NCBI RefSeq assembly: GCF_036669915.1
Contig: NC_089314.1
Span: 7,880,958-7,944,957 of the forward strand
Reading direction: 5' to 3'
DNA: 64,000 nt
Origin: Pocillopora verrucosa
Lineage: Eukaryota > Cnidaria > Anthozoa > Scleractinia > Pocilloporidae
A program made the position numbers and the translations under genes. The notes beneath the pieces are model-generated. The model worked only from the letters and a program-made list of their open reading frames with translations. It searched no databases and was not told the origin of the DNA. Of the stretch, positions 23,296 through 58,166 are shown piece by piece (position 1 is the first letter of the stretch; each line of letters opens with the position of its first letter).

Positions 23296-23610
23296 ATGTT
23301 TACCAACTGGATATATTTGAATTTTTACGTTGCTTTAATGCAGCAAATAATTTCGGCGAACTACCTTGTCACAGACCACAACCGCGTTTTAGCCGGTCAT
23401 TCTTTCAAGGAGCTATACGCCACAAACTGGTTGAACTGTATTCAGGCTTGTTATGACGAACCAAAATGTATCTCGTACAACTACCAAAGATTAGGGGCTG
23501 AAAATGGTGTGTGTGAATTGAATGACAGTGGATTTGAGGACTTGTGCGACAGAGATGAGGTACTTATCTACTCATCCGGCTTTGTTTTTCAACAGATAAG
23601 AAAAATTAAG
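23296..23610 (+). pseudogene. Solitary plus-strand PAN/apple exon (probable gene remnant)
   Basis: 105 codons ending at a clean AAG|GTAAGT donor in phase 0. The product begins with a hydrophobic leader and then a PAN-like domain (NWLNCIQACYDEPKCISYNY, then CELNDSGFEDLC), closely matching exon 1 of the minus-strand PAN-FN3 genes nearby. One cysteine conserved in those genes (LNDC) is Ser here. Homologous 55-nt linker or FN3 exons could not be found on the plus strand downstream, so the exon appears orphaned. From 23543 onward it belongs to the duplicated unit, so the breakpoint cuts through the domain. A functional gene with unrecognised distal exons is not excluded. Confidence 0.6.
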
Positions 23611-25239
23611 GTAAGTATTTATTGGTTGCATGTTCATTTCAATTGCGGTAAAGTTGGGCGCCTTTATTATGATGAAGCAACAAAGAATTTTAGGGAAGGA
23701 AAACTGCAATAGGAAATGAAAGGCCTGAGTTTGGATGCGTAGATGTATGAGAGGCATAAAAAGTAAACTTACATTTTATCCCAGCTAGGACACATGTTAT
23801 TGCGGTGTCACAATGCCGTATGCTCTTGCCTCCGCTTTCCTTGTGATTCAGTCTTTTAGTTTTCCAAATCCATATCACACTATTCGAAAATTAATATCAG
23901 TAGGTTAGGGATGTGCATTGTCTATTTGAGAAGAAAAGCAAAAGGAAAGGCAAATAAAATAAAATAAAGCGCTGAAAAATTAAAAATAAAATTGCAAACT
24001 CTTCTCTTAAAATTTTTGACAAAACTTTAAGTAAAACAGCAATGGTTTCTTTCGATTTCGTATATTGGCTGAAGATGACTTCTCTGTGATTATAAAACGT
24101 ATTTCTTGAACTCAAGTGAACAAATCCTTTTCATTTAATCGATCGACAGTTGTCCAAAGATGATTTGAATGTCCAACACACTGGATTAAGCGTTCCGGAG
24201 TCAAAGGAGTTAACTACAGCCACAACACGCACTAAGGATAACACAGGACTCCTGACGCTAAAGCCCATTAATTTGGATGATTAAGTAGCACCTGGCCCTA
24301 TACTCCCAACAGAATGAAAAGAAAAGCAAAATAATCACCTGAGTAATTCAGTGATAATTCCAATATCACTTTGAAGTAGAGGAGCATTTGCCAGCGTTGT
24401 AAAATTTAGTGTTTCACATAACCCGCGAGGAGGGCATGTTTTCTGGCGGGCGAGTGACAAATGTTCTGACTGATTATATTGTTGACAGAGGCAGCCATAG
24501 TGAGTTTGTAAGATCGAGAAAAACCTGACGCGCTTCAAAGTGGTTTACAACGAAGAGAAAAATAGGCGGCAGGGGTGGGGATAAGGTGGTTTATTCGCTC
24601 CAGGCTTTCCCCGATCTAAATAACTATATATGGTAGCTACAAAACTCAATCAGAATGATAAGCACTCGCTCGCCGATATTAAAGGCCTTCAATACAGTCT
24701 GTATTTTCCGACCATTGTGCTTCCAACTAGTGACATCAGAGGATAATGAATTCCACCCAAACCATCCCAAATGTAACCACTGACATGAATTGTGCAATCA
24801 AAGGAACGGACTTTGATTAGAATTTACAGGGTGCTGTCCGAAGAGGAATTCTTTATTTGTGTAGCAGTAGCAGTAGTTACCAAATGTAAATCGTCGTGTG
24901 TTACACAGTGTTGTAATTCGTGTACCCAATGCAACATTAAGGAATCAATGAAAGAAAATAGTTATTCTTAACTTTTCAATCTTAGCGCAACCATGGATCT
25001 GTCTTTACCAACATGTCTGATCTTATTTAGGTGGTCAAGCTGACTATTACTAAAACATACCTTAAGACAAACAAAACCAAGCGCATAAGATGACTAAATG
25101 TGACAATAAACTTCCATTTTAAGCACGTATTCTTGAGTGAAGACCCATGGATGTTACTCGTTTCTTTTACTATGTATAGAATAGTAAGTCCGAATAGCGA
25201 AAAAATATTAAAAGGCTAAAAATCCTTTGCTATTTGTAG
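23611..25239. other. Non-coding left part of unit A
   Basis: Shared closely with copy B (37026-38670) and, for the first 360 bases, with copy C. The short minus-strand frames here (such as 23572-23757 and 23897-24115) recur only because the DNA is duplicated, and they differ by indels between copies. No gene was recognised. Confidence 0.5.
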
Positions 25240-25466
25240 CCTTCATTGTAATGGTAAATTATGAGTTCTCATGAAGGCAACTATCTCCAAATACGTTGTT
25301 TGACTTTGGTTTCGTGGCCTTTCGCTTTTTTCGTGTTTCCTGATGTAACATTTATTCTGTATCTCTGTATTACATCCGATCCTCTATTAAATGGTATTCT
25401 GCATCAGGTGACCAGTATAAAGGATAAATTTACCCTTTATGTTGCAATATTTGGTGGCACCTGAGG
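25240..25466 (-). pseudogene. Decayed FN3 exon (type 1 exon-4-like), copy A
   Basis: On the minus strand this aligns along its length with the last FN3 exon of the type 1 gene (26486-26781): the same order of blocks around TTTGGTGG, GACCAGTATA, TATTCTGTAT and GTAATGGTAAATT. It has in-frame stops and indels. With the decayed exon at 25670-26030 it marks a third, older gene copy downstream of A1. Confidence 0.65.
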
Positions 25467-25669
25467 CAAAATACATTTTATTAACTACCGTCAGTTTGCG
25501 ACGTTTGTTTTACATAATAAACAAGCATGTCTACGAAAACATAAGGTAACCTAAAGAATCCTCCAGTTTACAGAGAGGCAAAAACTATTTTTCTGGTTCA
25601 GAAATCATTCGAGAAGCTTCGAAAGAAACGATTTAATATATTACTCACTTTGCTAATCTTTTTACGCAA

Positions 25670-26032
25670 GGAGGACCTCACATGACGGACCATTCCCACA
25701 CTGGTCGTAGGCCAAAACTTTGATTTCGAACTTTTTTCCACAACTAATCCTGTAAGGTTAAAATGAACCGAGGAAACACTATTTATTTTTCTTTCTGCTT
25801 GTGGAGATCGACTTCCTTCGATGGCAGAGTATTCAACGTTGTGTCCTAAAATTTCCTACAGTACGTATGGGGGGGGGGGGGGAGGGGGGAGGGAGGGAGG
25901 GCACGGTTACACGTAGGCTAAAAATTTCCTCATATGTGTGATTGGATGGTAGGACATCCCATGAGATGAATATGCTTTTGGCTGTATTGTTCACAAAGGT
26001 GACATTTTGTGGCGGAGTCCCAGGAACTGGAA
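25670..26032 (-). pseudogene. Decayed FN3 exon (type 1 exon-3-like) with G-run insertion, copy A
   Basis: Matches exon 3 of the type 1 gene (27861-28166) at both ends: the GAGGACCTCACATGACGGACC block at left and the GGTGACATTTTGTGGCGGAGT block at right, including the acceptor-side sequence. Frame-breaking changes and a poly-G tract at about 25868-25900 interrupt it. Confidence 0.65.
25868..25900. repeat. Poly-G / GGGA tract
   Basis: A run of about 15 G followed by GGGA-type blocks, strongly G-quadruplex-like. It is present in copy B (about 39317-39353). The 1.9 kb deletion in copy C ends exactly next to this tract. Confidence 0.75.
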
Positions 26033-26485
26033 TGAAGGCTTACATCTTAAACTCTTCATTTAACCCTGTCAAACTTGTAAATGTGTTTCATTTGACATAA
26101 GACTTTTATTGTTTTTAATAAAAATTGATTTACAGCGTAATACATACCTCGCTTAAGAACTAAACATCAGCATTTCTTGCCTTAATTACATCATCTTTTA
26201 AATAGTTCTTACCTTTCCACCGAAAATTGTTCCGGGACGTTTACCCACAACAAGTAACTGTATGGTGATAATTACTTTTGCAATTTTTTACAAAGCTGAC
26301 GATTATTAACAATTATCCTATGTAACAGTCTACGGTTTTTATCAGACCATTTACAGACGTACACGCGAAATGGAGAAAAATCGACCATAACTGCGATTGG
26401 CGATAATTCCTTTATTGTACCCTGTACATTAAAAAAATTTCACAGATCATCACGTTTGGTATCGTAAATTGTTCCAAGGATGTTG

Positions 26486-29400
26486 TTACGGAACAGCAGT
26501 TATATTAACAGGCTCACTAACTGGTCCAAATCCTTTGCTATTCGCAGCCTCCACAGTAATGGTAAATTTTGAGTCCACGTTTATGCCAACGATCTCCAGA
26601 TACTGTGTTGGCGCTTGTACTTCGCGACTTGTTGTTTCGTTGGGGATCTTTGATGTAATATTTACTCTGTATTTCTGTATCAAGCCCCGTCGTTTACCAT
26701 CGGGTATCCTTTCCCAGGAGACCAGTACACAGGACGAATTCACTCTCACTGCGCTAATATTTGGAGGCGCCACCTTAGGCCCTGAAGCCAACCACATTTT
26801 ATGTACTTAATGAGTGAGCGGGAGGGCCGGGAAGGAAGATATTTGGCTCGAGGCGGACTCTGTCCGTACGGCATTACCTCGAGCCACATATTTTTCTGGT
26901 CTGGTCTAACAAAACTCAGTCAATAAGCATTTTGTTATATGACCATTTAGTGCTGGAACTCGCACACAGAAGGGCGCCAATCGAAAATCTAGCAAAATAA
27001 TCTAGAGCTAACTTGTATATTTTGTTGGAATGTTGTGGTAAACTGGCTCGAACACAGAGCGCAAACGGGAGGCATCAGGAGTCTGATCAAGAACTTTTAT
27101 TCGGGTCGACCGCCGCTTTTTTCTCAATACCTAATTTAGCCTTAAATAAACGCTCTTTACTATCCTGTCGGCAGGCAAGTGGGGGCTTGCGGGAACACTA
27201 ACTTTGGTAGATTAAACATCTCTCTAGAGGACTATCTCAAGCAATCTCACTAGACTTTCGAAATGAACAACAAAGTACTCGATACATCAAGCCAAGAAAA
27301 CAATCGATCTTCGAGAACTAAAACCTAACCAAAAGCTCAAGTTGAGGACTTAAAGTAAGGTCGGTAGACGAACTCAAACACGACTAGTGGTGGCGATTAC
27401 TGTCCGATATTAAGCCCCATTATAGCAGTCAAGGACAAATCACTTAAAAGCGGAACTACATGTGTGCACTTGTATCGCAGGACAAAACAAGGCTCACAAG
27501 ACTTGCGCAAAGACCACAAGATATTCTAAAAAACATAAAAAATTCACAAACGTGTAGCCAGAACACTTCAAATGTAGTTCATAACAATTTTTTATCTTCG
27601 AGGCAGAACAAGGAAATCAGAATGCACCGTAAAGTGTAACTCACTTTATTATTTGTTTTATTTAAAAGTACACAATTTTAATCCTCTTTCTCGGAAAATG
27701 CAAAACAGCTATGTGGGTGCGGGGCCGGATGGTTTATTTTCCCAACAGGCTCAAGTCAACACGTCCCGCCTTACACTCGCTAGCTTTCACTATGGTTATC
27801 TACGGCTTAGCACGTGCGGGGCAGTGCGGATCATATGATATATGAAAAGATGTTACTTACTTCTCTCGTCTGTTTTAACCCAGAGGACCTCACTTGACGG
27901 ACCATTCCCACACTGGTTGTAGGCCCGCACTTTGATTTCGTACCTTCTGTTCACAATTAATCCTGTAAGGTTGAAATGTACGTCGGGAACACTAAACACT
28001 TTTCTTTTCTCCCATGCCGGTTGACCTTCTTCTATTATCGAATATTCTACTTCATATCCGACAATTTCGTCATTTGTCTGATTCGTTGGCACAGCATCCC
28101 ATGTGATAAAAATGCTCTTGTACGTTTTGTTTACCATCGTGACATTTTTTGGAGAAGTCCTGGGAACTGAAATGTAGGCTAGTTTCGGTTAACAATGAAA
28201 TATTCGAGAGCAGATCCTCAGTCTTTTTCTTCTTCGTTGATGTTTTGGTGCGTCTGCGATCTTCTCAACACCAGTGGTAAAGATCACTGACGCACTGGAA
28301 CACTCCCGACTTAGGACCAGCCTATCGTATCAAGTGGTCAGAAACATTACACTTGCTAAATTTATGGCAGCTTATCGAATTCGGGCGGGTCTTAAGTTTA
28401 GGCACGATCTGATGGGCCTATTTGAAATAAAGGGTTATCCTGTTTTCTTAATGAGGATATATTTGTTAAAGTAACCCCCCCCCCCCTCAAAAAAAAAAAA
28501 AAATTGATGATATCCTAAAAAGATGAGTTCCGTCTGCAAACGCTTACTTAGAGACAATATTTGTTCCGATGTTTTCTTCCGAAAAATCAGTGCGAAACAT
28601 ATAATGACCTTTGCATCCCTGCATACCGTAGAAGTATCAGTCTACAAATATAACATCAACGATTAACATTCACATGTCTTCATGACTAGAAGCCACAAGT
28701 TTGTATAAAGTTGATGATAAACAATTTCTTAATAAGTCTCTGAATAAGATTTTAGCTGTTACTGAAAGAAAAACACACTCATCACAAAAGCATTCATATT
28801 CATTACTTTATTTTTTATCTAAACATATTGTCACCCAAGGTAATATTGTCATGGAATTATTATTTTTACTGGGAAACTTCAAATTTTGCTCTCATAATTT
28901 GCCCGGAAAGTTTAGAAGAAAATTAAAGAGCTTACCTGATCTATCCGAAATGCAACTGTTTTTACCGTGGGAAGGTAAACACCCGTTAACCTAAAAGGCG
29001 TATAGCGAGTACATAATTATATAATTGTGATAATGGTGATGATGAACAGAAAAGAGAGATTTCGGAATACAAATCTATAATTTTTTGATAATTTACGGAG
29101 GACGGAAATGTTCTACGAAAATGCCTTGACCTGCTGCTGAATAATCTTAACTGCCACAGCAGATGCTCGAAGTGAATACAGAGCGAAATAACGTTATTTT
29201 CTCATTTTGTGAAGATCACAAATTCAGATTATACAGGCAGTGCTAACATTAAGATAAAAGCAAAGGAGTAAGCTCGGTTTGCTAAATCAATCCCACAAAA
29301 GTATGCCAACAAATCGGCAAAAAGCCTGCTTCACAAGTCAAGTAAAGATGCAAGCGCCTCAGTTATTGAAAGTTGAATCATTGATCATAAATAATGAAAG

Positions 29401-30171
29401 AATGGGATGGAAGGTAACCATCAAATTTCCCAGTATCTAAAAGGTTATCTCTGAAAGCTGTCCTTGATTTGCGAATTTGTTACCTCATTCGCATTAAGTC
29501 TTATCCGAACACTTTATATATTAAGTAGTGCTTGTTTATGATGCCAATGCTGAACATACTATAAAACGCTAAGTTTGCTTTCTCCTAACAATATCAAAAT
29601 GTTAGAATAAATTAAAAAATCTATCAATCATGAATAAATGAATAAAATCGGGGATCAAGGGAAATGTTCTCATCAAATTGAAGTAGATGGTAGGGTTAGA
29701 AATAATGAATCTAAACTGATCGGAGAAATGACAACTTCCTTAAATATCTTTAATTACTTGACATGGAACTAACTTTGTTTTATCGATCACATTACTTACC
29801 TTCTTTATAATTGTTTTTATCTGCTGGAAAACGAAGCCCTTCGAGTAAGTAAGGAACTTATCTCTGTTGCACAAGTCTTCAAATCCACAATCATTCAATT
29901 CACACAGACCGTTAGCGTTTTCAGACCTCTGGTAGCTGTACGAGACGCAACTTGGTTCATCGTGACAAGCTTGAAGACAGTTGAACCAGTCTGTGCCGTG
30001 AAACTGTTTGAAAACATGACCGACGTTTGATACGCGGTTATTTTCTGTGACTGGATGTAATTTTCGTAATGGTGGACATGTTAAAAATACAAGGAAAACG
30101 TTAAGATAAACAAGGTTTTTTAAGAACAGCATGATTCCAAACATGAAGAGAAGACGGGGTTCTGCCCTCAC
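26486..30171 (-). CDS. Secreted PAN-FN3-FN3 protein, type 1, copy A
   Basis: Exons on the minus strand: 29800-30171, 28936-28990, 27861-28166, 26486-26781. All junctions are GT-AG with phases 0, 1 and 1, giving 1029 nt (342 aa). Later in-frame ATGs at 30144 and 30132 would give a more usual signal peptide (MFGIMLFLKNL...). Exon 1 carries the leader and a PAN/apple-type domain (DWFNCLQACHDEPSCVSYSY, then CELNDCGFEDLC). The 55-nt exon 2 encodes VNGCLPSHGKNSCISDRS, with two cysteines. Exons 3 and 4 each encode one fibronectin type III domain (VPRTSPKNV... with ITWDAVP and YEIKVRAYNQCG; RPKVAPPNI... with LVSWERIP and FTITVEAANSKG). Several NxS/T sequons suggest glycosylation. No transmembrane segment follows the last domain, so the product is probably secreted. 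PAN and FN3 domains are protein- or glycan-binding modules; the partner is unknown. It lies head-to-tail downstream of the type 2 gene. Confidence 0.82.
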
Positions 30172-30778
30172 GAATGAAGCGATTGAACTCTGGACAAAGT
30201 TGCAGTTTGCTTTGATGTTCGTTAAACACGAGAATGATTGACAAATCGGGCGCGAATTTTTTCTGCAATTTCATCAATGTCTTCACCTGCCATTATTCAA
30301 ACTCTAACCTGTTTATCGATGAGCTTCATTTGACAAAGAACTTTAATTATTTTGATGAATATAGTTCACAGCATAACACGTAACTTACACAACAACTAAG
30401 CTTTAATATTTCTTGTCTTAATTAAATCATTCCCTTTAATGTGACCTATTTTCGAGAAATGCCTCAGAAAACTATTGATGTATTTTGATAATTACTCGTG
30501 CAAAGTTTTCAAAACTGACGATTGTTTAACAATAGCTTCTGACCGGTTAATGGCTACGTTTTGTCACCGTGTACGGTTTTTATTAAAACGATCTATATTG
30601 CATATCGCTTTTTGATAAAACTTATTTCATGGTATATCATTCTTAATGAGTATATTGGTTAGGCATTTGAATTTTTTTTCTTCTTTATTAAATTTCTTTT
30701 GACTTACAGATTAATTTCTGACGCGAGGGTGTTGTGCAGCGGAAATTACCCAGTTTATTGGTAGACCTTAGTAAACAT

Positions 30779-30989
30779 TAATCCTTTAACTCCAAAGATC
30801 TGATTGTTAATTCTCCTCTCTGGCTGCTACACACTTCTTTGTAAATTAGTTGTGATAATTTAGTGTTAGATCAAGATAACAACTTCTACCTGATTGATTT
30901 TAGTTTTCTTAGAACCTGTTTGCAGGATAATGTTTGGATATGATAAGGAGAAGTTCAATGTTAATCACTTCTGAGAGTTAAAGGGTTAA
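30779..30989. mobile_element. MITE-like element with TTTAACTC termini, copy A
   Basis: About 210 bases bounded by inverted ends CCTTTAACTCC and GAGTTAAAGGGTT, flanked by TTAA. Related elements are at 52022-52232 and, more divergent, 62697-62871. It has no coding capacity. I associate this sequence type with abundant short repeats of coral genomes. Confidence 0.6.
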
Positions 30990-31368
30990 AGCGATTAATT
31001 ATTAACCAGACATCTGTGTGTTCTAAATTATAAACCAGGAACTGATTACGTGAGGTATCCAACACAATGACCCGAAAAGGCCTAACACAGTTGTAAGAAT
31101 ACAACGCAAAAATAACCTTTATAAACTAGAAATTGCCTAAAAAGTACAAAACGTGAACTTTAATACCTCAAGTTTATTAAAACATTACCACTTTAAAGTT
31201 CTATAGCTTAAATTGAGACATCAGTCTCCTTTATTTTAATGTTTGTGATACGAAATTAAATGTAAACTCAGCAATCGATGCTTTATCTAAGAAACTTTTG
31301 GCTGTAGGGTTTATATATGAAGTCATCTTTTAAATATCTCCAAAGGTACACTGATTCTGGAATTGAAA

Positions 31369-34300
31369 CTAAGTGTTACTTAACATATTCAGTTTCACCT
31401 TAACAGGTTTACTGGCCGGTCCGTACCCTTTGCTAGTTGACGCCGACACTGTTATTGTGTATTCTGGATCCGCCTCTAAGTTTGTCAACAAGAGTAACCG
31501 CTTTGCTTTGTCTACTTTTTCACTCATTGTTCTCGCTCCCAGCTTTGATCGGGTATAATTCACTCTGTAACTTATGATTGTCCCATCTCGTTTACCATTT
31601 GGTACTCTATCCCAACTGACCAATATGCTTGTTGAGTTCTTTCTCTCAGCTGATAAATTTTGAGGTGCTGCTTTGGGTCCTTAAATGTATAGAAACAGAG
31701 GCATCAGAATGTAACGCAATTGATCAGTTCAGAAAGTAAGCAGGTGAGCAGGCAAGCGGTAAGTAATGGCTATGTAGGTAGATTGGTACATTGGCTGGTA
31801 ATACTTAAGTATTATCGTCATTCGCTCTGACGAAAGGTTAGCGCTCGAAACGCCAGCTTTGAAACTCTTTACGGTGGCCAATTTACGTTATCAACTCAGT
31901 TGATAATAACAAATTACCATGTTATACTCTCCCACAGACACAGCACCACAGTTTCTTCAGGAAGAAGCCTCCTTTATTCACTAGTGAGTAGGTAGGTTGC
32001 CGGTTTGTGAGCATGGAAGTCGGTGTTAAGTACTTACTTAGAAAGGTGGGCCAGTCGTTAGATAGGAAGGTTGGTGGGTACATAGGCGGACGAGTAGATG
32101 GGGGAGTGGGTATATAAGTGGGTGGGGGTGGGGGTGGGAAGGAAGCAGAGAGGGACAGTAGGTGGGTAGGCGACCATAGGTGGGTAAGCAGGGAGGCAGG
32201 TGAGTGGGTAGGAACATAGAGACGTAGATAGGTTGGTAGGTGGCTAAGATGCGACAGGAAGGCAAGTAAATGAATAGATAAGAAGGTAGGTAGAGAAGGA
32301 ATGTTTAGGTAGGTAGATAGGTAGGGAGGTCGGTAGTTAGTTTCAACTTCTCATTATGTGATGGAACGCAGCTCTTCAGTCAGAGCTATCCTCCTCCTGC
32401 AACGCTTGTTTCGAAAGTACATTTGCAGAAAGCAGAGAAAAGAAGGGGTAAACATTTAGATAGAAAGGATGGTAGGCAGGTAGCTTGGGGGTAGGTATGC
32501 AGTTAGATAGCGAACAGCAACAGAGATTGATACAATGTAAAACATCATGTTAAAACTTACTGTCTTCGTCTGTCTTTGCTGAAAGCATCGCGCTGGAAGG
32601 ACCATCCCCACATTGATTGAATGCTAACACTGTTATGTTGTACCTTCTGTGTATTTTTAATCCTGTAAGGTTGATATAAACCGTGGAAGCTGTAACCTCA
32701 CTCCCATGAATGTCCTTCTTACCGGACTTTAAGGAGTAAATCACTTTATATTCTGGGATCAGTTCGAGATTCTGATTGGTTGGTACAACATCCCACGTGA
32801 TGAAAAGACTGGTTATCGTCTTGTTCACCTCTTTAACATTTTGAGGCGGAATCGTGGGAACTGAAATGGAGACATAGTTCTATTAGCATTATAATTTCTC
32901 AAGTCTAAAGTAAATTACCATCAAGTGTAAAAATTGATCTTCGCAGCTGAGCTGGATACTAAAAAAATCTGTTAGAAAAAAAGCCTGCAAAAATACAGGT
33001 TTCAACGGAATTCAAACCCGCACCTCTCAGGTTCTAGTTGGATGCTAAAATTTGTCTTGCTTCATTTGTGTGGCTTTGGTGTTTAGTTGATAGTAGCGGC
33101 CCAACTATCCTACAAACTTACCACGTAGTCCTCTAACTTTGCAAGTGGCTTATTTGGCCGGCAACCGATAGAATGAGCGATTTATTGCTTTAACAAAAAT
33201 GGGAAAATTTTTAATTGTCTATGAGTTTATCGGAGCGATATATTTTGACCAATCAGGGCACCCGTAGTTTTTAAGCTATTTCATAATTGACGGTGTTTTT
33301 ACACAGCCTTCCCTTTATGCGCTGCGGTCATATTTCCGACAAGGTAATGAAGGTGTCAGTCTTCAAAAAGCGTTTGCTTCGGATTCGTAATAGGTCTGGA
33401 AAATGAGGCTGGTTTAATCAGATCAAACATAAAGTTAAAACTAGCTTTTAGTAGTAATTAACCAACAACTCAATATTTTTCTAGCCTTCAATTCTGTAAA
33501 TTGCATGGCGAGTTTTTAAGAGAATTAAATTGGTCACCTGAGTCATTCAGTGCGCAGATGTTTTCCTTCTGTGAAGCGGCACACTCGTCAGTCTGCGGGA
33601 TATAGGTTTTAGATTAAAAGAACATCGAAAATTAGACATAGGTGAGATAAAGCTTTTCAAATAACGTTTGTACAAAACTACGTTTTAATAACCAATGTTT
33701 AATTTCAAGCCGATAATTATGCAAATAACTTTTTGAGTAATCTCCAATGTATGCGGCTCCTCCTCAAAGGATTTAGCTTAACGTCTGACTGAGCCTTCAG
33801 TAATGGTAATTTTAAAAAAATATCCAGATGATTGACAAGAATATGTTCGCTAAAAAGTCTTATCAGCTTTGTAAAAAATAAACTTCTTCAGAGAATATCG
33901 AAACAAACAATTGAAAATAAATTCTGGTTTTTCTATACACAAAATTGGATAAGAATATTTAGAGCTTAACGCAAAGGCAAGGTAAATTGACACCTGGATA
34001 TCGTTTGAACATTTTTGAACAAATGATAATTAACATGACTAAGACAAGGCATGTGAAAAAGCCGATATATTCTATTAGCTAACGCTTCCGACAGCCGTGA
34101 TAAACAATTTAGGCAAACTTTCAAACAGAAAACTCAAGAGCAAAAGCACCGAGCGGACGTATTTCTCTGCAATTTTATGTAATATAAACATTGGTTTAAC
34201 TGATCAAATAAAACTTAAGCCAGCAAATAATGAAATTAATACATAGATTGAAGAAGGAAGGGTGTCTATAAAACTTCTTAGATTTAAAACGCTTCCTGGA

Positions 34301-36580: not shown

Positions 36581-36598
36581 TAAGCGTAGTCATTTTGG

Positions 36599-36715
36599 AT
36601 TCTGGTCACTCGTAGACATTCGTGGTCACTCGTAGTTACTCGCAGTCACTCGTAGTCACTCTTTGTCATTCGTGGTCACTCGTGGTCACTCGCGGTCACT
36701 CGTGTGTTCGTTTAG
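36599..36715. repeat. GGTCACTCGT minisatellite, A/B junction
   Basis: About ten imperfect copies of a 10-base unit (GGTCACTCGT and variants such as AGTCACTCGT and GGACATTCGT). It sits in the spacer that separates duplication units and is present again at 46396-46500, but is missing after copy C. Confidence 0.85.
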
Positions 36716-36957
36716 AAATACAACGAGGTCTTGCTTATTGATTTTCACATCGTAGTTGTGGAGTATTTGACAAGTATTTGAATGCGTGACGAAAGCATGA
36801 GTAAGGGTGACCAAGCTTAGATGAGAAATCTTTGACCAAATGTTAATTAGTTGCCTGCAATAAACTTGGCTTACTTCTTGCACTTGAGCGCTGTGCCACT
36901 AAATCTTAATCAGACTCCAAAAGAAAGTGTTTCAATGTTTTTTCCTGAGTGGATGCG

Positions 36958-46373: not shown

Positions 46374-46395
46374 CAAGCGTAGTCTTTTTGGGTTC

Positions 46396-46500
46396 TGGTC
46401 ACTCGTGGACATTCGTGGTTACTCGTAGTAACTGGCAGTCACTCGTAGTCACTCTTTGTCATTCGTGGTCACTCGTGGTCACTCGCGGTCACTCGTGTGT
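46396..46500. repeat. GGTCACTCGT minisatellite, B/C junction
   Basis: Second occurrence of the 10-base minisatellite in the inter-unit spacer (46374-46750). Confidence 0.85.
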
Positions 46501-46750
46501 TCGTTTAGAAATACAACGAGGTCTTGCTTATTGATTTTCACATCGTAGTTGTGGAGTATTTGACAGGTATTTGAATGCGTGACGAAAGCGTGAGTAAGGG
46601 TGACCAAGCTTAGATGAGAAATCTTTGACCAAATGTTAATTAGTTGCCTGCAATAAACTTGGCTTACTTCTTGCACTTGAGCGCTGTGCCACTAAATCTT
46701 AATCAGACTCCAAAAGAAAGTGTTTCAATGTTTTTTCCTGAGTGGATGCG

Positions 46751-46818
46751 TGTGCGACAGAGATGAGGTACTTATCTACTCATCCGGCTTTGTTTTTCAA
46801 CAGATAAGAAAAATTAAG
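46751..46818 (+). pseudogene. Truncated PAN exon fragment, copy C
   Basis: Same 3' 68-base exon fragment as at 36958-37025. The donor reads AAG|GTACGT here. Confidence 0.85.
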
Positions 46819-47182
46819 GTACGTATTTATTGGTTGCATGTTCATTTCAATTGCGTTAAAGTTGGGCGCCTTTATTATGATGAAGCAACAAAGAATTTCA
46901 GGGAAGGAGAACTGCAATAGGAAATGAAAGGCCTGAGTCTGGATGCGTAGATGTATGAGAGGCATTAAAAGTAAACTTACATTTTATCCCAGCTAAGACA
47001 CATGTTATTGCGGTGGCACAATGCCGTATGCTCTTGTCTCCGCTTTCCTTGTCATTCAGTCTTTTAGTTTTCCAAATCCCTATCACACTATTCGAAAATT
47101 TATATCAGTAGTTTAGGGATGTGCATCGTCTATTTGAGAAGAAAAGCAAAAGGAAGGGCAAATAAAATAAAATAAAGCGCTG

Positions 47183-47325
47183 GAGGGCACGGTTACACGT
47201 AGGCTAAAAATTTCCTCATGTGTGATTGGTTGTTAGGACATCCCATGAGATGAATATGCTTTTGACGGTATTGTTCACAAAGGTGACATTTTGTGGCGGA
47301 GTCCCAGGAACTGGAATGAAGGCTT
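47183..47325 (-). pseudogene. Remnant of decayed FN3 exon, copy C
   Basis: Only the 5' part (in transcript sense) of the exon-3-like pseudoexon remains, cut by the deletion at 47182. The GGTGACATTTTGTGGCGGAG block is retained. Confidence 0.6.
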
Positions 47326-47749
47326 ACATCTTAAACTCTCCATTTAACCCTGTCAAACTTGTAAATGTGTTTCATTTGACATAAGACTTTTATTCTTTTT
47401 AATAAAAATTGATTTACAGCATAATACATACCTCGCTTAAGAACTAAACATCAGCATTTCTTGCCTTAATTACATCATCTTTTAAATAGTTCTTACCTTT
47501 CCACCGAAAATTGTTCCGGGACGTTTACCCGCAACAAGTAACTGTATGATGATAATTACTTTTGCAATTTTTTACAAAGCTGACGATTATTAACAATTAT
47601 CCTATGTAACAGTCTACGGTTTTTATCAGACCATTTACAGACGTACACGCATAACTGCGATTGGCGATAATTCCTTTATTGTACCCTGTACATTAAAAAA
47701 ATTTCACAGATCATCACGTTTGGTATCGTAAATTGTTCCGTGGATGTTG

Positions 47750-50700
47750 TTACGGAACAGCAGCAGTTATATTAACAGGCTCACTGACTGGTCCAAATCC
47801 TTTGCTATTCGCAGCCTCCACAGTAATGGTAAATTTTGAGTCCACATTTATGCCAACGATCTCCAGATACTGTGTTAGCGCTTGTACTTCGCGACTTGTT
47901 GTTTCGTTGGGGATCTTTGATGTAATATTTACTCTGTATTTCTGTATTAAATTATTACCATTGGGTATTCTGTCCCAGGAGACCAGTACACAGGACGAAT
48001 TCACTCTCACTGCGATAATATTTGGAGGCGCCACCTTAGGCCCTGAAGCCAACCACATTTTATGTACTTAATGAGTGAGCGGAAGGGCCGGGAAGGAAAA
48101 TATTTGGCTCGAGGTGAACTCTGTCCGTACGACATTACCTCGAGCCTCATATTTTTCTGGTCTGGTCTAACAAAACTCAGTCATTAAGCATTTTGTTCTA
48201 TGACCATTTAGTGCTGGAACTCGCACACAGAAGGGCGCCAATTGAAAATCTTGCAAAATAATCTAGAGCTAACTTGTATATTTTGTTGGACTGTTGTGGT
48301 AAACTGGCTCGAATACAGCGCGCAAACGAGAGGCATCAGGAGTCTGATCAAGAACTTTTATTCGGGTCGACCGCCGCTTTTTTCTCAATACCTAATTTAG
48401 CCTTAAGTAAACACTCTTTACTATCCTGTCGGTAGGCAAGTGGGGGCTTGCGGGAACACTGACTTTGGTAGATTAAACATCTCTCTAGAGGACTATCTCA
48501 AGCAATTTCACTAGACTTTCGAAATGAACAACAAAGTACTCGATACATCAAGCCAAGAAAACACACGATCTTCGAGAACTAAAACCTATCCAAAAGCTCA
48601 AGTTGAGGACTTAAAGTAAGGTCGGTAGACGAACTCAAACACGACTAGTGGTGGCGATTACTGTCCGACATTAAGCCCCATTATAGCAGTCAAGGACAAA
48701 TCACTTAAAAGCGGAACTATATGTGTGCACTTGTATCGCAGGACAAAACAAGGCTCACAAGACTTGCGCAAAGACTACAAGATATTCTAAAAAACATTAA
48801 AAATCACAAACGTGTAGCCAGAACACTTCAAATGTAGTTCATAACAATTTTTTATCTTCGAGGCAGAACAAGGAAATCAGAATGCACCGTGAAGTGTAAC
48901 TCACTTTATCATTTTTTTAATTTAAAATTACACAATTTTAATCCTCTTTCTCGGAAAATGCAAAACAGCTATGTGGGTGCGGGGCCGGATGGTTTATTTT
49001 CCCAACAGGCTCACGTCAACACGTCCCGCCTTACACTCGCTAGCTTTCACTATGGTTATCTACGGCTTAGCACGTGCGGGGCAGTGCGGATCATATGATA
49101 TACGAAAAGATGTTACTTACTTCTCTCGTCCGTTTTTACCCAGAGGACCTCACTTGACGGACCATTCCCACACTGGTTGTAGGCCTGCACTTTGATTTCG
49201 TACCTTCTGTTCACAATTAATCCTGTAAGGTTGAAATGTACGTCGGGAACACTAAACACTTTTCTTTTCTCCCATGCCGGTTGACCTCCTTCTATTATCG
49301 AATATTCTACTTCATATCCGAAAATTTCGTCATTTCTCTGATTCGTTGGCACAGCATCCCATGTGATAAAAATGCTCTTGTACGTTTTGTTTACCATCGT
49401 GACATTTTTTGGAGAAGTCCTGGGAACTGAAATGTAGGCTAGTTTCGGTTAACAATGAAATATTCGAGAGCAGATCCTCAGTCTTTTTCTTCTTCGCTGA
49501 TGTTTTGGTGAGCCTGCGATCTTCTCAACATCAGCGGTAAAGATCACTGACGCACTGGAACACTCCCGACTTAGGACCAGCCTATCATATCAAGGGGTCA
49601 GAAACATTACACTTGCTAAATTTATGGCAGCTTATCGAATTCGGGCGGGTCCTAAGTTTAGGCACGATCTGATGGGCCTATTTGAACTAAAGGGTTTTCC
49701 TGATTTCTTAATGAGGATATAGTTGTTAAAGTAACCCCCCCAAAAAATTGATGATATCCTAAAAAGATGAGTTCCACCTTCAAACGCTTACTTAGAGACA
49801 ATATTTGTTCCGATGTTTTCTTCCGAAAAATCAGTGCGAAACATATAATGACCTTTGCATCCCTGCATACCGTAGAAGTATCAGTCTACAAATATAACAT
49901 CAACGATTAACATTCACATGTCTTCATGACTAGAAGCCACAAGTTTGTATAAAGTTGATGATAAACAATTTCTTAATAAGTCTCTGAATAAGATTTTAGC
50001 TGTTACTGAAAGAAAAACACACTCATCACAAAAGCATTCATATTCATTACGTTATTTTTTTATCTAAACAAATTGTCACCCAAGGTAATATTGTCATGGA
50101 ATTATTATTTTTACTGGGAAACTTCAAATTTTGCTCTCATAATTTGCCCGGAAAGTTTAGAAGAAAATTAAAGAGCTTACCTGATCTATCCGAAATGCAA
50201 CTGTTTTTACCGTGGGAAGGTAAACACCCGTTAACCTAAAAGGCGTATAGTGAGTACATAATTATATAATTGTGATAATGGTGATGATGAACAGAAAAGA
50301 GAGATTTCGGAATACAAATCCATAATTTTTTGATAATTTACGGAGGACGGAAATGTTCTACGAAAATGCCTTGACTGCTGCTGAATAATCTTAATTGCCA
50401 CAGCAGATGCTCGAAGTGAATTCAGAGCGAAATAACATTATTTTCTCATTTTGTGAAGATCACAAATTCAGATTATGCAGGCAGTGCTAACATTAAGATA
50501 AAAGCAAAGGAGTAAGCTCGGTTTGCTAAATCAAGCCCATAAAAGAATGCCAACAAATCGGCAAAAAGCCTGCTTCACAAGTCAAATAAAGATGCAAGCA
50601 CCTCAGTTATTGAAAGTTGAATCATTGATCATAAATAATGAAAGAAAGGGACGGAAGGTAACCATCAAATTTCCCAGTATCTAAAAGGTTATCTCTGAAA

Positions 50701-51415
50701 GCTGTCCTTGATTTGCGGATTTGTTACCTCATTCACATTAAGTCTTATCCGAACACTTTATATATTAAGTAGTGTTTGTTTATGATGCCAATGCTGAACA
50801 TCCTATAAAACGCTAAGTTTGCTTTCTTCTAATAATATCAAAATGGTAGAATAAATTTAAAAATCTATCAATCATGAATAAATGAATAAAATCGGGGATC
50901 AAGGGAAATGTTCTCATCAAATTGAAGTAGATGGTAGTGTTAGAAATAATGAATCTAAACTGATCGGAGAAGTGACAACTTCCTTAAATGCCTTTTATTA
51001 CTTGACATGGAACTAACTTTGTTTTATCGATCACATTACTTACCTTCTTTATAATTGTTTTTATCTGCTGGAAAACGAAGCCCTTCGAGTAAGTAAGGAA
51101 CTTATCTCTGTTGCACAAGTCTTCAAATCCACAATCATTCAATTCACACAGACCGTTAGCGTTTTCAGACCTCTGGTAGCTGTACGAGACGCAACTTGGT
51201 TCATCGTGACAAGCTTGAAGACAGTTGAACCAGTCTGTGCCGTGAAACCGTTTGAAAACATGACTGACGTTTGATACGCGGTTATTTTCTGTGACTAGAT
51301 GTAATTTTCGTAATGGTGGACATGTTAAAAATACCAGGAAAACGTTAACATAAATAAGGTTTTTTAAGAACAGCATGATTCCAAACATGAAGAGAAGACG
51401 GGGTTCTGCCCTCAC
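47750..51415 (-). CDS. Secreted PAN-FN3-FN3 protein, type 1, copy C
   Basis: Exons on the minus strand: 51044-51415, 50181-50235, 49121-49426, 47750-48042. The total is 1026 nt, 341 aa from the first ATG (later starts at 51388 and 51376 possible), phases 0, 1 and 1. Same architecture as the copy A type 1 gene, and the linker exon encodes the same VNGCLPSHGKNSCISDRS. Compared with A, exon 1 has about five residue changes, all in the leader and first part of the PAN domain. Exon 4 has lost one codon and changed neighbouring residues in the B-C loop region of the last FN3 domain (IPNGNNLIQKYR against IPDGKRRGLIQKYR). Splice signals and stop are intact, so it should be functional. Probably secreted; binding partner unknown. 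Confidence 0.82.
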
Positions 51416-52021
51416 GAAGGAAGCGATTGAACTCTGGACAAAGTTGCAGTTTGCTCTAATGTTCGTTAAACTGGAGAATGATTGACAAATCGGGCCCGAA
51501 TTTTTTCTGCAATTTCATCAATGTCTTCACCTGCCATTATTCAAACTCTGACTTGTTTATCGATGAGCTTCATTTGACAAAGAACTTTAATTATTTTGAT
51601 GAATATAGTTCACAGCATTACACGTAACCCACACAACAACTAAGCTTTAATATTTCTTGTCTTAATTAAATCATTCCTTTTAATGTGACCTATTTTTCGA
51701 GAAATGCCTCAGAAAACGATTGATGTATTTTGATAATTGCTTGTGCAAAGTTTTCAAAACTGACGACTGTTTAACAATAGCTTCTGACCGGTTAATGGCT
51801 ACGTTTTGTCACCGTGTACGGTTTTTATTAAAACGATCTATATTGCATATCGCTTTTTGATAAAACTTATTTCATGGTATATCATTCTTAACGAGTATAT
51901 TGGTTAGGCATTTGAATTTTTTTCTTCTTTATTAAATTTCTTTTGACTTACAGATTAATTTCTGACGCGAGGGTGTTGTACAGCGGAAATTACCCAGTTT
52001 ATTGGTAGACCTTAGTAAACA

Positions 52022-52232
52022 TTAATCCTTTAACTCCAAAGATCTGATTGTTAATTCTCCTCTCTAGCTGCTACACACTTCTTTGTAAATTAGTTATGAT
52101 AATTTAGTGTTAGATCAAGATAACAACTTCTACCTGATTAATTTTAGTTTTCTTAGAACCTGTTTGCAGGATAATGTTTGGATATGATAAGGAGAAGTTC
52201 CATGTTAATCACTTCTGAGAGTTAAAGGGTTA
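52022..52232. mobile_element. MITE-like element with TTTAACTC termini, copy C
   Basis: Duplicated counterpart of 30779-30989; the copy B equivalent was removed by the 3.5 kb deletion. Confidence 0.6.
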
Positions 52233-52612
52233 AAGCGATTAATTATTAACCAGACATCTGTGTGTTCTAAACTATAAACCAGGAACTAATTACATGAGGT
52301 ACCCAACACAATGACCCGAAAAGGCCTAACACAATTGTAAGAATACAACGCAAAAATACCCTTTATAAACCAGAAATTGCCTAAAAAGTACAAAACGTGA
52401 ACTTTAATATCTCAAGTTTATTAAAACATTACCACTTTAAAGTTCTATAGCTTAAATTGAGACATCAGTCTCCTTTATTTTAATGTTTGTGATACGAAAT
52501 TAAATGTAAACTCAGCAATCGATGCTTTATCTAAGAAACTTTTGGCTGTAGGGTTTATATATGAAGTCATCTTTTAAATATCTCCAAAGGTACACTGATT
52601 CTGGAATTGAAA

Positions 52613-55600
52613 CTAAGTGTTATTTACCATATCCAGTTTCACCTTAACAGGTTTACTGGCCGGTCCGTACCCTTTGCTAGTTGACGCCGACACTGTTATT
52701 GTGTATTCTGGATCCGTCTCTAAGTTTGTCAACAAGAGTAACCGCTTTGCTTTGTCTACTTTTTCACTCATTGTTCTCGCTCCCAGCTTTGATCGGGTAT
52801 AATTCACTCTGTAACTTATGATTGTCCCATCTCGTTTACCATTTGGTACTCTATCCCAACTGACCAATATGCTTGTTGAGTTCTTTCTCTCAGCTGATAA
52901 ATTTTGGGGTGCTGCTTTGGGTCCTTAAATGTATAGAAACAGAGGCATCAGAATGTAACGCAATTGATCAGTTCAGAAAGTAAGCAGGTGAGCAGGCAAG
53001 CGGTAAGTAATGGGTATGTAGGTAGATTGGTACATTGGCTGGTAGTACTTAAGTATTATCGTCATTCGCTCTGACGAAGGGTTAGCGCTCGAAACGTCAG
53101 CTTTGAAACTCTATACGGTGGCCAATTTACGTTATCAACTTAGTTGATAATACTAAATTACCATGTTTTACTCTCCCACAGACGCAGCACCACAGTTTCT
53201 TTAGGAACTTGCCTCCTTTATTCATTGGTGAGTAGGTAGGTTGGTTTGTGAGCGTGGAAGTCGATTTTAAGTACTTATTTTGATAGGTAGGGCCAGCCGT
53301 TAGATACGAAGGTTAGTGGTTAGATATGCGGATGATTAGATGGGGGAGTGGGTATATAAGTGGGTGGGGGTGGGGATGGGAAGGAAGCAGAGAGGGGCGG
53401 TAGGTGGGTAGGCGAATAGCACCATAGGCAGGTAAGCAGGGAGGCAGGTGAGTCGGTAGGAACATGGAGAGGTAGATAGGTTGGTAGGTAGCTAAGTTGC
53501 GACAGGATGGCAAGTTAACGAGCAGATAAGAAAGTAGGTAGGCAAAGGAATGTTTAGGTAGGTAGATAGGTAGGAAGGTCGGTAGTTAGGTTCAACTTCT
53601 GATTATGTGATGGAACGCAGCTCTTCAGTCAGAGCTATCCTCCTCCTTGCAACGCTTGTTCCGAAAGTACATTTACAGAAAGCAGAGAAAAGAAGGGGTA
53701 AACATTGAGATAGGAAGGACGGTATGCAGGTAGCTTGGGGGTAGGTATGCAGTTAGATAGCGAACAGCAACAGAGATTGATACAATGAAAAACAGTACGT
53801 CAAAACTTACTGTCTTCGTCTGTTATTACTGAAAGCATCGGGCTGGAAGGACCATCCCCACATTGATTGAATGCTAACACTGTTATGTTGTACTTTCTGT
53901 GTATTTTTAACCCTGTAAGGTTGATATAAACCGTGGAAGCTGTAACCTCACTCCCATGAATGTCCTTCTTACCGGACTTTAAGGAGTAAATCACTTTATA
54001 TTTTGGGATCAGTTCGAGATTCTGATTGGTTGGTACAACATCCCACGTGATGAAAAGACTGGTTATCGTCTTGTTCACCTCTTTAACATTTTGAGGCGGA
54101 ATCGTGGGAACTGAAATGGAGACATAGTTCTGTTAGCATTATAATTTCTAATGTCTAAAGTAAATTACTATCAAATAGAAAAATTGATCTTCGCAGCTGA
54201 GCTGGATATTAAAAAAATCTTTTAGAAAAGAAGCCTGCAAAAATACAGGTTTCAACGGAATTCAAACCTGCACCTCTCAGATTCTAGTTGGATGCTAAAA
54301 TTTGCCTCGCTTCATTTGTGTGGCTTTGGTATTTAGTTGATAGTAGCGGCCCGACTATCCTACAAACTTACCACGTAATCTTCCAACTTTGCAAGTGGTT
54401 TATTTGGCCGACAACCGATAGAAAGTGCGATTTATTGCTTTAATAAAAATGGGAAAAATTTTAATTTTCTATGAGTTATATATATCGGGCAATATACTTT
54501 GACCAATCAGGGCGCCCGTAAGCTATTTCATAATTGACGGTGTTTTAACTCAACCTTCCCTTTATGCGCTGCGGTCATATTACCGACAAGGTAATGAGGG
54601 TGTCAGTCTTAAAAAAGCGTTTGTTTCGGATTCGTAATAGGTCTGGAAAATTAAGCTGGTTTAATCAGATCAAACATAAAGTTAAACTAGTTTTTAGCGG
54701 TAATTAACCAACAAATCACTATTTTTCTTGTCTTCAATTATGTAAATTGCATGGCGAGTTTTTAAGAGAATTAAATTGGTCACCTGAGTCATTCAGCGCG
54801 CAGATGTTTTCCTTCTGTGAAGCGGCACACTTGTTAGCCTGCGGGATATAAGTTTTAGATTAAAAGAACATCGAAAATTAGACATAGGTGAGATAAAGCT
54901 TTTCAAATAAACGTTTGTACAAAACTATGTTTTAATAACCAATGTTTAATTTCAAGCCGATAATTATGCAAATAACTTTTTGAGTAATCTCCAATGTATG
55001 CGGCTCCTCTTCTAATGATTTAACTTAGCGTCTGACTGAGCATTCAGTAATGGTAATTTTAAAAAAATATCCAGATGATTGACAAGAATATTTTCGCTAA
55101 AAAGTCTTTGATTATCAGCTTTGTAAAAAAACTTCTTCAGAGAATAACGTCTGGTTTTTCTATACACAAAATTGGATAAGAATATTTAGAGCTTAACGCA
55201 AAGGCAAGGCAAATTGACACCTGGATATCGTTTGAACATTTTTGAACAAATGATAATTAACATGACTGTGACAAGGCATGTGAAAAAGCCGATATATTCG
55301 ATTAGCTAACGCTTCCGACAGCAGTGATAAACAATTTAGGCAAACTTTCAAGCAGAAAAAACTCAAGAGCAAAAGCACCGAGCGGACGTATTTCTCTGCA
55401 ATTTTATGTAATATAAACATTGGTTTAACTGATCAAATAAAACTTAAGCCAGCAAATAATTAAATTAATGGATAGATTTAAGAAGGAAAGGGTGTCTATA
55501 AAACGTCTTAGATTTAAAACGCTTCCTGGAGAAAATAAAGGGATTTTTGTTTAGAAGAAGCGTATTAAAAGTGCATGGAAATTAGCAGAAAGACAAACAT

Positions 55601-56154
55601 ATTTGCACTCCTAAAATGAAGAAGAGGAAGTCTTTATTTCTGGTAGAAAAAACCGAAGTAGATGGAAAATAGGTTTCATGTTTGAGATACCCATGATCCC
55701 ATGAGCTTTCGTAGAATGTGAAATTATTTTGACTAACAAACAGTAACGTCCCTGGCTTTAGCTGCCTCACAGAAAATCGAATTAAAAATAAATAAAATTA
55801 AACCTGTGACCTTGTTTCACTTAATACAGCACTCACTTTACTCGTCCTTATCTGCTGAAACACAAATCCTGGGGAGTAAAAGAGAGACCCTTCTCTGTCG
55901 CAAAAGATTTCAACTCCACAGTCATTCAATTCACACAGACCGTTGGCTTCTGCCGATCTCTGGTAGTTGTACGAGAAGCATCTTGGATCATCATGGCAGG
56001 TTTGTAGACAGTTGAACCAGTCTGTTGCAGTAAAGGCTTGAAAAACATGGCCGGCTAAAACATGGTTGTTCTTTGTGGTGGGCTGAATTGCAAATATCAG
56101 TTTGTGCTGAACAAAAACTAAAACCAACTTGAGAAATACCAAGTATTTGAGCAT
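52613..56154 (-). CDS. Secreted PAN-FN3-FN3 protein, type 2, copy C
   Basis: Exons on the minus strand: 55837-56154, 54784-54838, 53811-54110, 52613-52923. The total is 984 nt, 327 aa, phases 0, 1 and 1. Leader and PAN domain are nearly those of copy B, but the conserved acidic residue before the last PAN cysteine is changed (GVEIFC for GVEDFC), a two-base change. The linker exon starts ANKCAAS instead of TDECAAS. FN3-1 has a few changes (SSPMLSVITDEDS). The C-terminus VKLDMVNNT resembles copy A, not copy B. All splice sites and the stop are intact. As for the other copies, the product should be secreted and its partner is unknown. Confidence 0.84.
53071..53095 (+). other. Hammerhead-core-like motif, copy C (tentative)
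   Basis: CTGACGA-AGGGTTAGCGCTC-GAAAC followed by GTC, which could be the cleavage triplet side of a hammerhead; other stems not traced. Confidence 0.35.
53220..53590. repeat. GGTA-rich tract in intron 3, copy C
   Basis: Counterpart of the tracts in A and B, more diverged, with several short indels. Confidence 0.7.
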
Positions 56155-57335
56155 GACGATATGAATGATATTCTTCTCACGTTATTAATGACAGAGAGCA
56201 TCAGATATTTAGGGGAATTACCATAAGTGACAGCTCTTAAAAGCTCAAATTAATTGGCCGATGTCTATTTTCTGAAGTCAACTCATTTTTTTTACGTTTT
56301 AACGCTTCTAAATGTTGTTTTTGATTCTCCTTCAAATAATTCACTCTCGTCTCCAGAAACTTAATAGACCGCAAAGATATGAGTGTCATTAATTAAAATT
56401 TAAGTGAGGTAGGCTTAACATTACTATCTTTTAAGCTTAATTCTGCATTTAAAAATCGCAGCAGGTGATCTCCAAAAAAAAATTGCCCAAATGTGAAGAC
56501 AAGTGACACATAAAAATAATTGCTTTTACCTCTTTCAGAATTTAAGCCGAACTTTTGTTATCGAAAGCGCATTTGCACTTCAAGTCCGATCATATTTTAC
56601 GATAGGAAATAAATTACGAACGCCTTCACTGGAATTCATTCCCACTGATGAGATAACAAAAACATTGCAAAAGCTCGATTCTTGCGGACGTGACAAAAAA
56701 GTATCTGCTCAGATCGCTTACCTCATGATCTCCGCTTTGACATCCATAAACTCCCATATCATAGGGTTTACCCCGCGAGTGGGCAAGGTTTAATGAATAT
56801 TGTGGTTGATTGACTACCCGTTCGAGCAGTTTAGGCTCGATTTGCCCGCTTCGAACCCGCGATGTGGAAAAATGCTTGAACGAATAAAGGTTTTGCGGGA
56901 GTTTAGCACAAAAAAGTGAACAACACTTCCATATAGACAGGCAACAAAGTTGTCTCCTGAAATATGATAACTTCAACCTACGCTTACGCGCTGTGAAGAT
57001 GCTATTTTATGTTTCATGATCAACTGTGAGGATAAGTTGAATGAAATGCATAGCTACTTGGTACCACTGGTAACCACATAAATACTCTGTGATTTGCTTT
57101 GGAAATATAGTTTGTTTTGAAAATTGAAAGTAATGCGAGGGGAATTTAAAGGATTCTTTGTAATAAAACAAATAGAAAAGCCTTGACTGCTCTGTATTGT
57201 TGAAAAGAACGCAGGATTCGGTTAGAGCACGAAAGAAGTGTAGTGAGGTACACGAGACGTGGTCGAGTGTTTCTCCCCACTTCCTGAATGTTTCACAACA
57301 GAACATGGAACAGTTAGGGCTTCTCTATTTGTTAA
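56155..57335. other. Upstream region of type 2 gene, copy C
   Basis: Counterpart of 35014-36140, with an extra block of about 75 bases near 56380-56455. No gene recognised. Confidence 0.5.
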
Positions 57336-57704
57336 ATAGGGAAAGCAAAAGGCAAGGCACGCGGGAAACGAGGAGCGTGACTCGCATTTCACGCTAGCCT
57401 CGTGCTTACCTCCGCTGGCCTGAATACTACTCTTGACTGGTTACCTTCACCAATCAAACTATCTTTGCTGCCGTTGAGTTTTATTTTCAGAGCAGCAACT
57501 GGCCGATAAAATGAGACCATTGGGACTCAATTGGGCGTGAAACCTGGCCTCGGAAGTTTATTGTGGAATTTCATGTTCTTGGCCTGAACGCACACTTAGG
57601 GTGATTGACTTTAGCTCACGAGATGACGAATCTCAAACGCAACATCTTCTGCAAAAATACCTTCGTGTAAACGCAATATATTTCTCAATTTCTGTTGCTT
57701 AATA
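57336..57704. mobile_element. Insertion specific to copy C (about 370 bases)
   Basis: Copies A and B read CTATTTGTTATTTGTTATACATTTC; in C the sequence leaves this after TTTGTTA and returns at TACATTTC. The inserted DNA is GC-richer at its left end, has no open frame and no clear terminal repeats or target duplication. A non-autonomous element or a replacement event are both possible. Confidence 0.5.
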
Positions 57705-58166
57705 CATTTCTAAGATCAAATGACTAAATATCTTTATTGCGCCTTTAATCTTTTATATTTCCTTTGTATGTTTACACTGCTCCTTCTCTCTCCATTAGTT
57801 CCCCCGGGTTCCCTTTCCTCCTTTCGTTTCTTCCATTCATTCCAGAGAGGATACGAGAGGCCGAGAAGTGGGAAGCGGGATACTCGAGAGGGAGGGCACG
57901 AACGAAACACGATAACAGCGCTATATTTTTTTGACAGCGAAATTGCTGTCGGGAATCTACCCTTTGGAAATGAAGGAAATGATACAATTTTCACATATTT
58001 CGGCCTTCGGAAATGGTTTTATTTGTGGTTGAATCATGATTATTCGATGAAAAGACGTATTGACGACGAAATTATGATGTCAGCCAAAGATTCAACCGCG
58101 TTCCCCGAGTCCTCTCTCTTGAGGGAACGATGTCGCCAAATATTTTAATGACTTAGAACTAGTGAT

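Follow-up and report, generated by a model that had tools for sequence, protein, structure and literature searches.

The 64,000-nucleotide window of the Pocillopora verrucosa genome analyzed here (C3:7880958-7944957, in a 353-Mb, 52-contig genome) contains a tandem array of genes predicted to encode secreted proteins, in which a PAN domain is followed by two FN3 domains. An earlier note on this DNA had proposed a three-copy tandem array at positions 23543-58166 of the window, and a self-comparison of the window confirmed this arrangement. The long blocks shared among the three units are about 95% identical, the longest of them extending over 8,720 alignment columns between units 1 and 3 (95.2% identical). 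The units also differ by large gaps, since the counterpart of the unit-1 stretch 27557-31048 is absent from unit 2, that of about 23975-25895 is absent from unit 3, and unit 3 carries about 360 additional bases at 57335-57694. Two minus-strand genes, A and B, had been assigned to each unit; this holds for units 1 and 3, but unit 2 retains just the last exon of B. The earlier assignment had also overlooked a plus-strand PAN exon, D, and, in every unit, what is left of a third gene, C. The features are compiled in Table 1.

Five genes, A1, A2, A3, B1 and B3, run open from ATG to stop with GT-AG at their internal borders, as the earlier note had claimed. The final gene models likewise bear out the proposed exon plan, which consists of a leader plus PAN exon, a 55-nt linker exon with two cysteines, and two FN3 exons (FN3a and FN3b), joined in phases 0, 1 and 1. 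The exons measure 318-333, 55, 300-306 and 293-311 nt, yielding products of 322-329 amino acids (aa); B1 has an alternative ATG at 30144. An AATAAA motif lies 69-142 nt 3' of the stop codon in all five genes (133 nt in A1). The division into two paralogue types was also upheld, with A1 and B1 identical at 164 of 322 residues. Eight cysteines in the PAN and linker are common to all five proteins, and the two cysteines of the A-type and B-type linkers have identical spacing. Because the same exon plan recurs in two types about half of whose residues differ, we consider the array to be more than a chance arrangement.

Table 1. Window positions of the array units, gene models, remnants and exon D.
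Feature	Positions	Strand	Product, state or evidence
Unit 1	23543-36957		self-comparison
Unit 2	36958-46750		self-comparison
Unit 3	46751-58166		self-comparison
Gene A1	exons 35013-34696, 33592-33538, 32860-32561, 31679-31369	-	327 aa; gene model and Pfam
Gene A2	exons 44960-44643, 43529-43475, 42806-42507, 41627-41332	-	322 aa; gene model
Gene A3	exons 56154-55837, 54838-54784, 54110-53811, 52923-52613	-	327 aa; gene model
Gene B1	exons 30132-29800, 28990-28936, 28166-27861, 26781-26486	-	329 aa; gene model and Pfam
Gene B3	exons 51376-51044, 50235-50181, 49426-49121, 48042-47750	-	328 aa; gene model
B2 remnant, last FN3 exon only	39938-40233	-	open, acceptor retained
Gene C, unit 1	25220-26313	-	decayed; translation searches
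Gene C remnants, unit 2	38658-39482	-	FN3a and FN3b fragments with stops
Gene C remnant, unit 3	47225-47311	-	start of FN3a only
Exon D, leader plus PAN	23296-23610	+	open; whole copy at left edge only; GTAAGT donor, phase 0; PAN_1 25.4 bits
Exon D stub, start of unit 2	36958-37025	+	last 22 codons; translation search
Exon D stub, start of unit 3	46751-46818	+	last 22 codons; same breakpoint as unit 2

Pfam domain searches were carried out with the A1 and B1 proteins, the A2 PAN exon and exon D. As whole proteins, A1 (94.6 bits, E 4e-27) and B1 (86.3 bits, E 2e-24) passed the 25-bit cut-off of FN3 (PF00041), each with two matching stretches. For PAN_1 (PF00024, cut-off 21.4 bits), the A2 exon (25.3 bits) and exon D (25.4 bits) passed, and A1 (20.6 bits) and B1 (18.6 bits) fell just under; PAN_4 and PAN_3 also matched weakly. 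The accessible text of PMC9249922 gives a PAN core of four to six cysteines, and the mature PAN of all five genes has six; exon D and two of the four closest relatives described below each lack one of them. The N-terminus is hydrophobic, with a best 15-residue mean hydropathy of 1.85-2.28 in the leader, as compared with 0.99-1.51 past residue 40; judged from hydropathy alone, the five products are probably secreted. Each protein carries 7-9 N-glycosylation motifs.

Remnants of gene C are found in all units, with the degree of decay varying among them, and are clearest at 26027-25220. In unit 1, the segment 26313-26081 resembles the region upstream of B, FN3a (26027-25656) contains a C-rich insertion and stops, and FN3b (25457-25220) contains stops; a PAN exon and a linker were looked for in the unit-1 copy and not found. 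The position of the B-upstream-like sequence, upstream of FN3a, suggests that the PAN and linker of gene C were lost. Exon D is accompanied by no FN3 on the plus strand within the window, and may have headed a gene that was lost or went unrecognised. Units 2 and 3 open with the last 22 codons of D, and the duplication breakpoint therefore lies inside this exon. The 60 bases preceding the stub are identical at both junctions (36958 and 46751), suggesting that one of them probably originated as a copy of the other. An inversion was considered as the source of exon D and gene C; for C, the B-upstream-like sequence fits better with the loss of PAN and linker, whereas D may have arisen in this or in another way.

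The relationships among the gene A copies shift along their length. The closest pair is A2-A3 in the PAN exon, A1-A2 in introns 2 and 3, and A1-A3 from the middle of the last exon onwards. The informative sites of A1-A3 and their flanks are clustered, forming 161 runs against a shuffle mean of 220.5, and none of 5000 shuffles gave a number as low. Together, the shifting closest pair and the clustering suggest that the copies have exchanged sequence. In A2, the latter half of the last exon and the 3' end are about 10% diverged from both A1 and A3, and this diverged end adjoins the deletion in unit 2; it may derive from another copy that is absent from the window. In our best reading, unequal exchange and gene conversion would have shaped the array.

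The PAN exons of the array have many counterparts in the genome. A genome search with PAN_1, in which the best 150 of 1226 first-look candidates were scored as matches, indicated a genome rich in PAN exons (at least 150 matches) that are often clustered; at least 23 listed exons, counted by eye, lie on one strand within about 254 kb at C8:18548637-18802739. The PAN exons of the window are missing from this list, which means that such lists miss divergent members. When the A1 protein was used as the query, the closest PAN exons outside the window, among the matches listed, were those at C3:8.832, 8.824, 8.851 and 0.787 Mb, which are 41-61% identical to the window PAN over the mature part. A search with the 8.851-Mb exon gave 84 matches, ten of them strong (E 4e-19 or better; the eleventh, E 5e-11), namely itself, six exons in the window, its two neighbours and the 0.787-Mb exon. 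Downstream of the PAN exons at 8.824, 8.832 and 8.851 Mb, on the same strand, lies a fibrinogen-like frame scoring 21.0-21.5 bits over 35-47 residues against Fibrinogen_C (cut-off 22), and downstream of that at 0.787 Mb, also on the same strand, a pentraxin domain (47.9 bits). As we read them, these frames would belong to the same predicted genes as the PAN exons. Such genes resemble those of the array in having the leader within the PAN exon, a phase-0 donor and a location on the same chromosome, but no FN3 was found in them and the fibrinogen-like or pentraxin part comes next instead. All 12 PAN-exon donors read by eye (six in the window and six elsewhere) are in phase 0, and in different genes these exons precede different C-terminal parts. 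At L047:3362-4569, a distant leader plus PAN exon is followed by a 156-aa open frame with no Pfam match, possibly one more C-terminal part joined to a PAN head. No relatives came up when viral and prokaryote contigs were scanned, as expected of an animal gene.

A second set of PAN-headed genes, in the cluster at C8:18.55-18.80 Mb, bears on the 55-nt linker. We scanned eleven loci for an EGF-type exon after PAN, requiring at least six cysteines, phases 0 to 1 and the spacing C-x-C-x8-C; length and cysteine offset were the only free features, and the phases were read independently for L050. Such an exon, in six distinct sequences, was found in all seven C8 loci scanned (L001-L004 and L006-L008), as well as in L050, where the gene is that of L001. 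Each of these exons measures 139 nt and places its last cysteine 5 residues from the donor, and the five window linkers agree with them in slot, phases, cysteine spacing and this 5-residue offset. In L050, where the phases were read from the DNA, the EGF (26.8 bits) is followed by Fibrinogen_C (178.5 bits). The C8 genes are thus like those of the array in the phase-0 end of the PAN exon, in a next exon of phases 0 to 1, in a following domain that begins in phase 1 and in their tandem clustering. They are unlike them in that the 139-nt EGF exon replaces the 55-nt linker, a fibrinogen domain (followed in L050 only) replaces the two FN3, and the PAN sequence is only distantly similar; A1 and B1 share the phases of the PAN-EGF-Fibrinogen_C plan, and Pfam reports neither EGF nor Fibrinogen_C in them. 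The linker could be a shortened EGF exon, or could simply adapt the phase of the head, 0, to that of the FN3 exons, 1.

The combination of PAN and FN3 appears to be confined to the window as far as our searches extend. FN3 was searched in the same manner as PAN_1 (best 150 scored of 1001 candidates), and the positions were compared by eye, with the matches of the A1 and 8.851-Mb searches included. Outside the window, no PAN match in these best-match lists was seen to have an FN3 match within 100 kb; the nearest pair noted, among the matches listed, is on C6, at a distance of about 107 kb. With a local FN3 profile, 13 stretches were recovered in the window, including all ten FN3 exons of A1-A3, B1 and B3 as well as the B2 remnant. 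The profile recovered none around PAN outside the window in L001-L008, L019, L020, L022, L030, L038-L047 and L049-L052, with L041, L044 and L045 representing neighbouring stretches; the small loci among these span 1.5 kb on each side, too short even for the FN3 of the window genes. Literature searches, mainly of freely accessible papers, returned no title, abstract start or passage naming a PAN-FN3-FN3 protein. The claim that this exact architecture belongs to no described family therefore survives the literature searches and the best-match comparison, within the limits of both. Among described cnidarian proteins, CniFL are, like the array products, multi-domain proteins that vary in copy number and for which a role in recognition has been proposed, but the accessible text of PMC5094078 defines them by collagen, Ig and fibrinogen domains. 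Polydom is, like the predicted products, extracellular, being a matrix protein that includes PAN/Apple, but the accessible text of PMC12549020 names no FN3 pair in it. C-type lectin proteins fused to PAN (PMC8260672, in its accessible part) share PAN with the array. Pfam reported no collagen, Ig or C-type lectin domain in A1 or B1.

Taken together, these results suggest, with moderate confidence, that the array is a PAN-FN3-FN3 variant of a modular set of PAN-headed genes, whose products would act in recognition or adhesion outside the cell. We regard the locus as a variant and not as a new family, because the large PAN-headed set of this genome joins PAN exons of the same phase to other domains. 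Exon shuffling would have joined the phase-0 leader plus PAN head to differing C-terminal parts in different genes. The 55-nt exon of phases 0 to 1, in the slot taken by EGF in the PAN-EGF genes, couples this head to phase-1 FN3 exons, and the array bears a breakpoint of duplication in exon D, deletions and signs of inter-copy exchange. The disulphide-rich proteins would leave the cell, the PAN head binding a protein or glycan ligand and the FN3 pair serving as a stalk, a spacer or a second contact. Between A and B, the ratio of nonsynonymous to synonymous substitution rates (dN/dS) is 0.18-0.22 in PAN and 0.21-0.25 in FN3a (six pairs), at a synonymous divergence (dS) of 1.05-1.83 that is near saturation; we infer from these low ratios long purifying selection, under which both types were long retained. 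A soluble recognition or adhesion protein is preferred because the accessible text of PMC8260672 names PAN as one of the domains to which C-type lectin domains are fused in cnidarian recognition receptors, and that of PMC10236652 describes many tandemly duplicated receptor and immunity genes in coral genomes; unequal crossing over has been put forward as a route (PMC12314368, accessible part).

Several observations weigh against this interpretation. In the three PAN relatives nearest to the array, the fibrinogen-like frame was read as following in phase 0, with no EGF exon seen, and a linker scan of these three yielded one weak candidate, in L040. The EGF scan reported no such exon in L005 (C6), L051 (C5) or L052 (C14). 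In L052, PAN is accompanied by Fibrinogen_C (176.1 bits) and by an exon of phases 0 to 1 with four cysteines; the last cysteine of this four-cysteine exon is right at the donor, so that the 5-residue offset is not general. Only 2-5 of 18 residues are alike between the linker and the end of the EGF exon, and the chance of both cysteine positions matching in 18 is about 1 in 153, in a comparison made post hoc. The PAN tree is mostly unresolved, with nine of its 13 inner branches open, and for this reason the FN3 forms are not claimed as one clade. The AlphaFold2 model of the PAN exon, built from six window sequences, is weak (mean predicted local distance difference test score, pLDDT, 59.4); with it, Foldseek returned nothing from the PDB that reached E 0.001, and apple-domain and MANEC proteins appeared only at E 0.58-1.9, the apple-domain protein factor XI being among the PDB matches at E 0.58-1.2. 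In addition, dN/dS is 0.6-0.95 between recent copies, and with values this near 1 some copies may be on their way out.

The main rival explanation, which we consider possible and rather unlikely, is that the products are parts of the mesoglea, the mucus or the organic matrix of the skeleton, in which PAN and FN3 would make matrix contacts and copy number would serve dosage. The leader and the numerous N-glycosylation motifs are compatible with such a role, and the accessible texts of PMC4890752 and PMC4043741 describe coral skeletal proteins with fibronectin and other adhesion domains, a few of their genes being tandem; PAN/Apple is itself present in the matrix protein Polydom (PMC12549020, accessible part). 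However, "PAN" and "apple" have no whole-word match in the main text of PMC4890752 and PMC4043741, and the nearest relatives in the genome carry fibrinogen-like or pentraxin domains, which would lean to recognition.

A stronger form of the recognition proposal, to which we assign a low probability, takes the array as a fast-changing locus and a new secreted PAN-FN3-FN3 family, possibly for recognition of self and non-self, microbes or symbionts, with A and B exons mixing in frame. The orphan B2 exon has the same acceptor as that of B1 and, when joined to the third exon of A2, reads in frame to its own stop. Mixing could proceed via inter-unit exchange and, in unit 2, by splicing of the A2 phase-1 donor to the B2 exon. 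If this is correct, individuals would differ in copy number and in PAN variants.

It is similarly doubtful that the copies are decaying duplicates, mostly neutral passengers among which one A and one B gene, or none, is functional. Decay would agree with the loss of gene C, the gutting of B2 and the recent-copy ratios, whole-gene dN/dS being 0.64 for A1-A2, 0.95 for A1-A3 and 0.89 for A2-A3, none distinguishable from 1 by a simple test. Coding divergence was also not below intron divergence for A1-A2 (P 0.30) and B1-B3 (P 0.65). On the other hand, it was below it for A1-A3 (P 0.001) and A2-A3 (P 0.005), and five complete copies are still open. The coding sequence of the four pairs A1-A2, A1-A3, A2-A3 and B1-B3 contains no frameshifting indel, as compared with 13 (A1-A3) and 15 (A2-A3) intron indels that are not multiples of three. 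At the intron rate, 2.2 (A1-A2), 5.0 (A1-A3), 5.7 (A2-A3) and 1.5 (B1-B3) coding frameshifts would be expected, and the probability of observing none is about 0.007 for A1-A3, 0.003 for A2-A3, 0.11 for A1-A2 and 0.23 for B1-B3. These comparisons suggest that the genes are real and that constraint has been weak since duplication.

An assembly artefact, in which haplotypes placed end to end mimic a tandem array, is very improbable: the unit identity of about 95% could include allelic sequence, but units 2 and 3 both begin inside exon D with the same preceding sequence, the deletions differ between units, the closest pair along gene A changes in mosaic fashion, and one shared internal breakpoint is not expected of allelic copies joined end to end.

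Other plus-strand open frames flank the array. Two overlapping long frames at 1823-10920 encode 1997 and 1037 aa and are seemingly coiled-coil-rich; the 1037-aa frame has hydrophobic stretches, the 1997-aa frame has no Pfam match at E 0.01, and the two are perhaps a single giant coiled-coil gene. A 336-aa frame at 13501-14511 encodes a rhodopsin-type G protein-coupled receptor (7tm_1, 80.2 bits). The frame at 21527-21907 ends in proline-rich repeats, and its start resembles the final part of a glycosyl hydrolase 18 domain; Pfam gave no match. The 338-aa frame at 58970-59986 has several hydrophobic stretches, with no Pfam family above cut-off, and its product is probably a membrane protein.

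On the preferred reading of the array as a variant of the PAN-headed set, one genome would reuse a phase-0 leader plus PAN exon as the shared head of several putative secreted proteins, and a tiny exon of phases 0 to 1 would allow phase-1 FN3 modules to attach to it. If the genes are expressed and their products bind ligands, the array would extend the PAN-headed repertoire of the animal by a branch with FN3 and offer a compact site for studying copy turnover; if not, it would be an ordinary young duplication. The locus illustrates well both the swapping of domains and the turnover of gene clusters.

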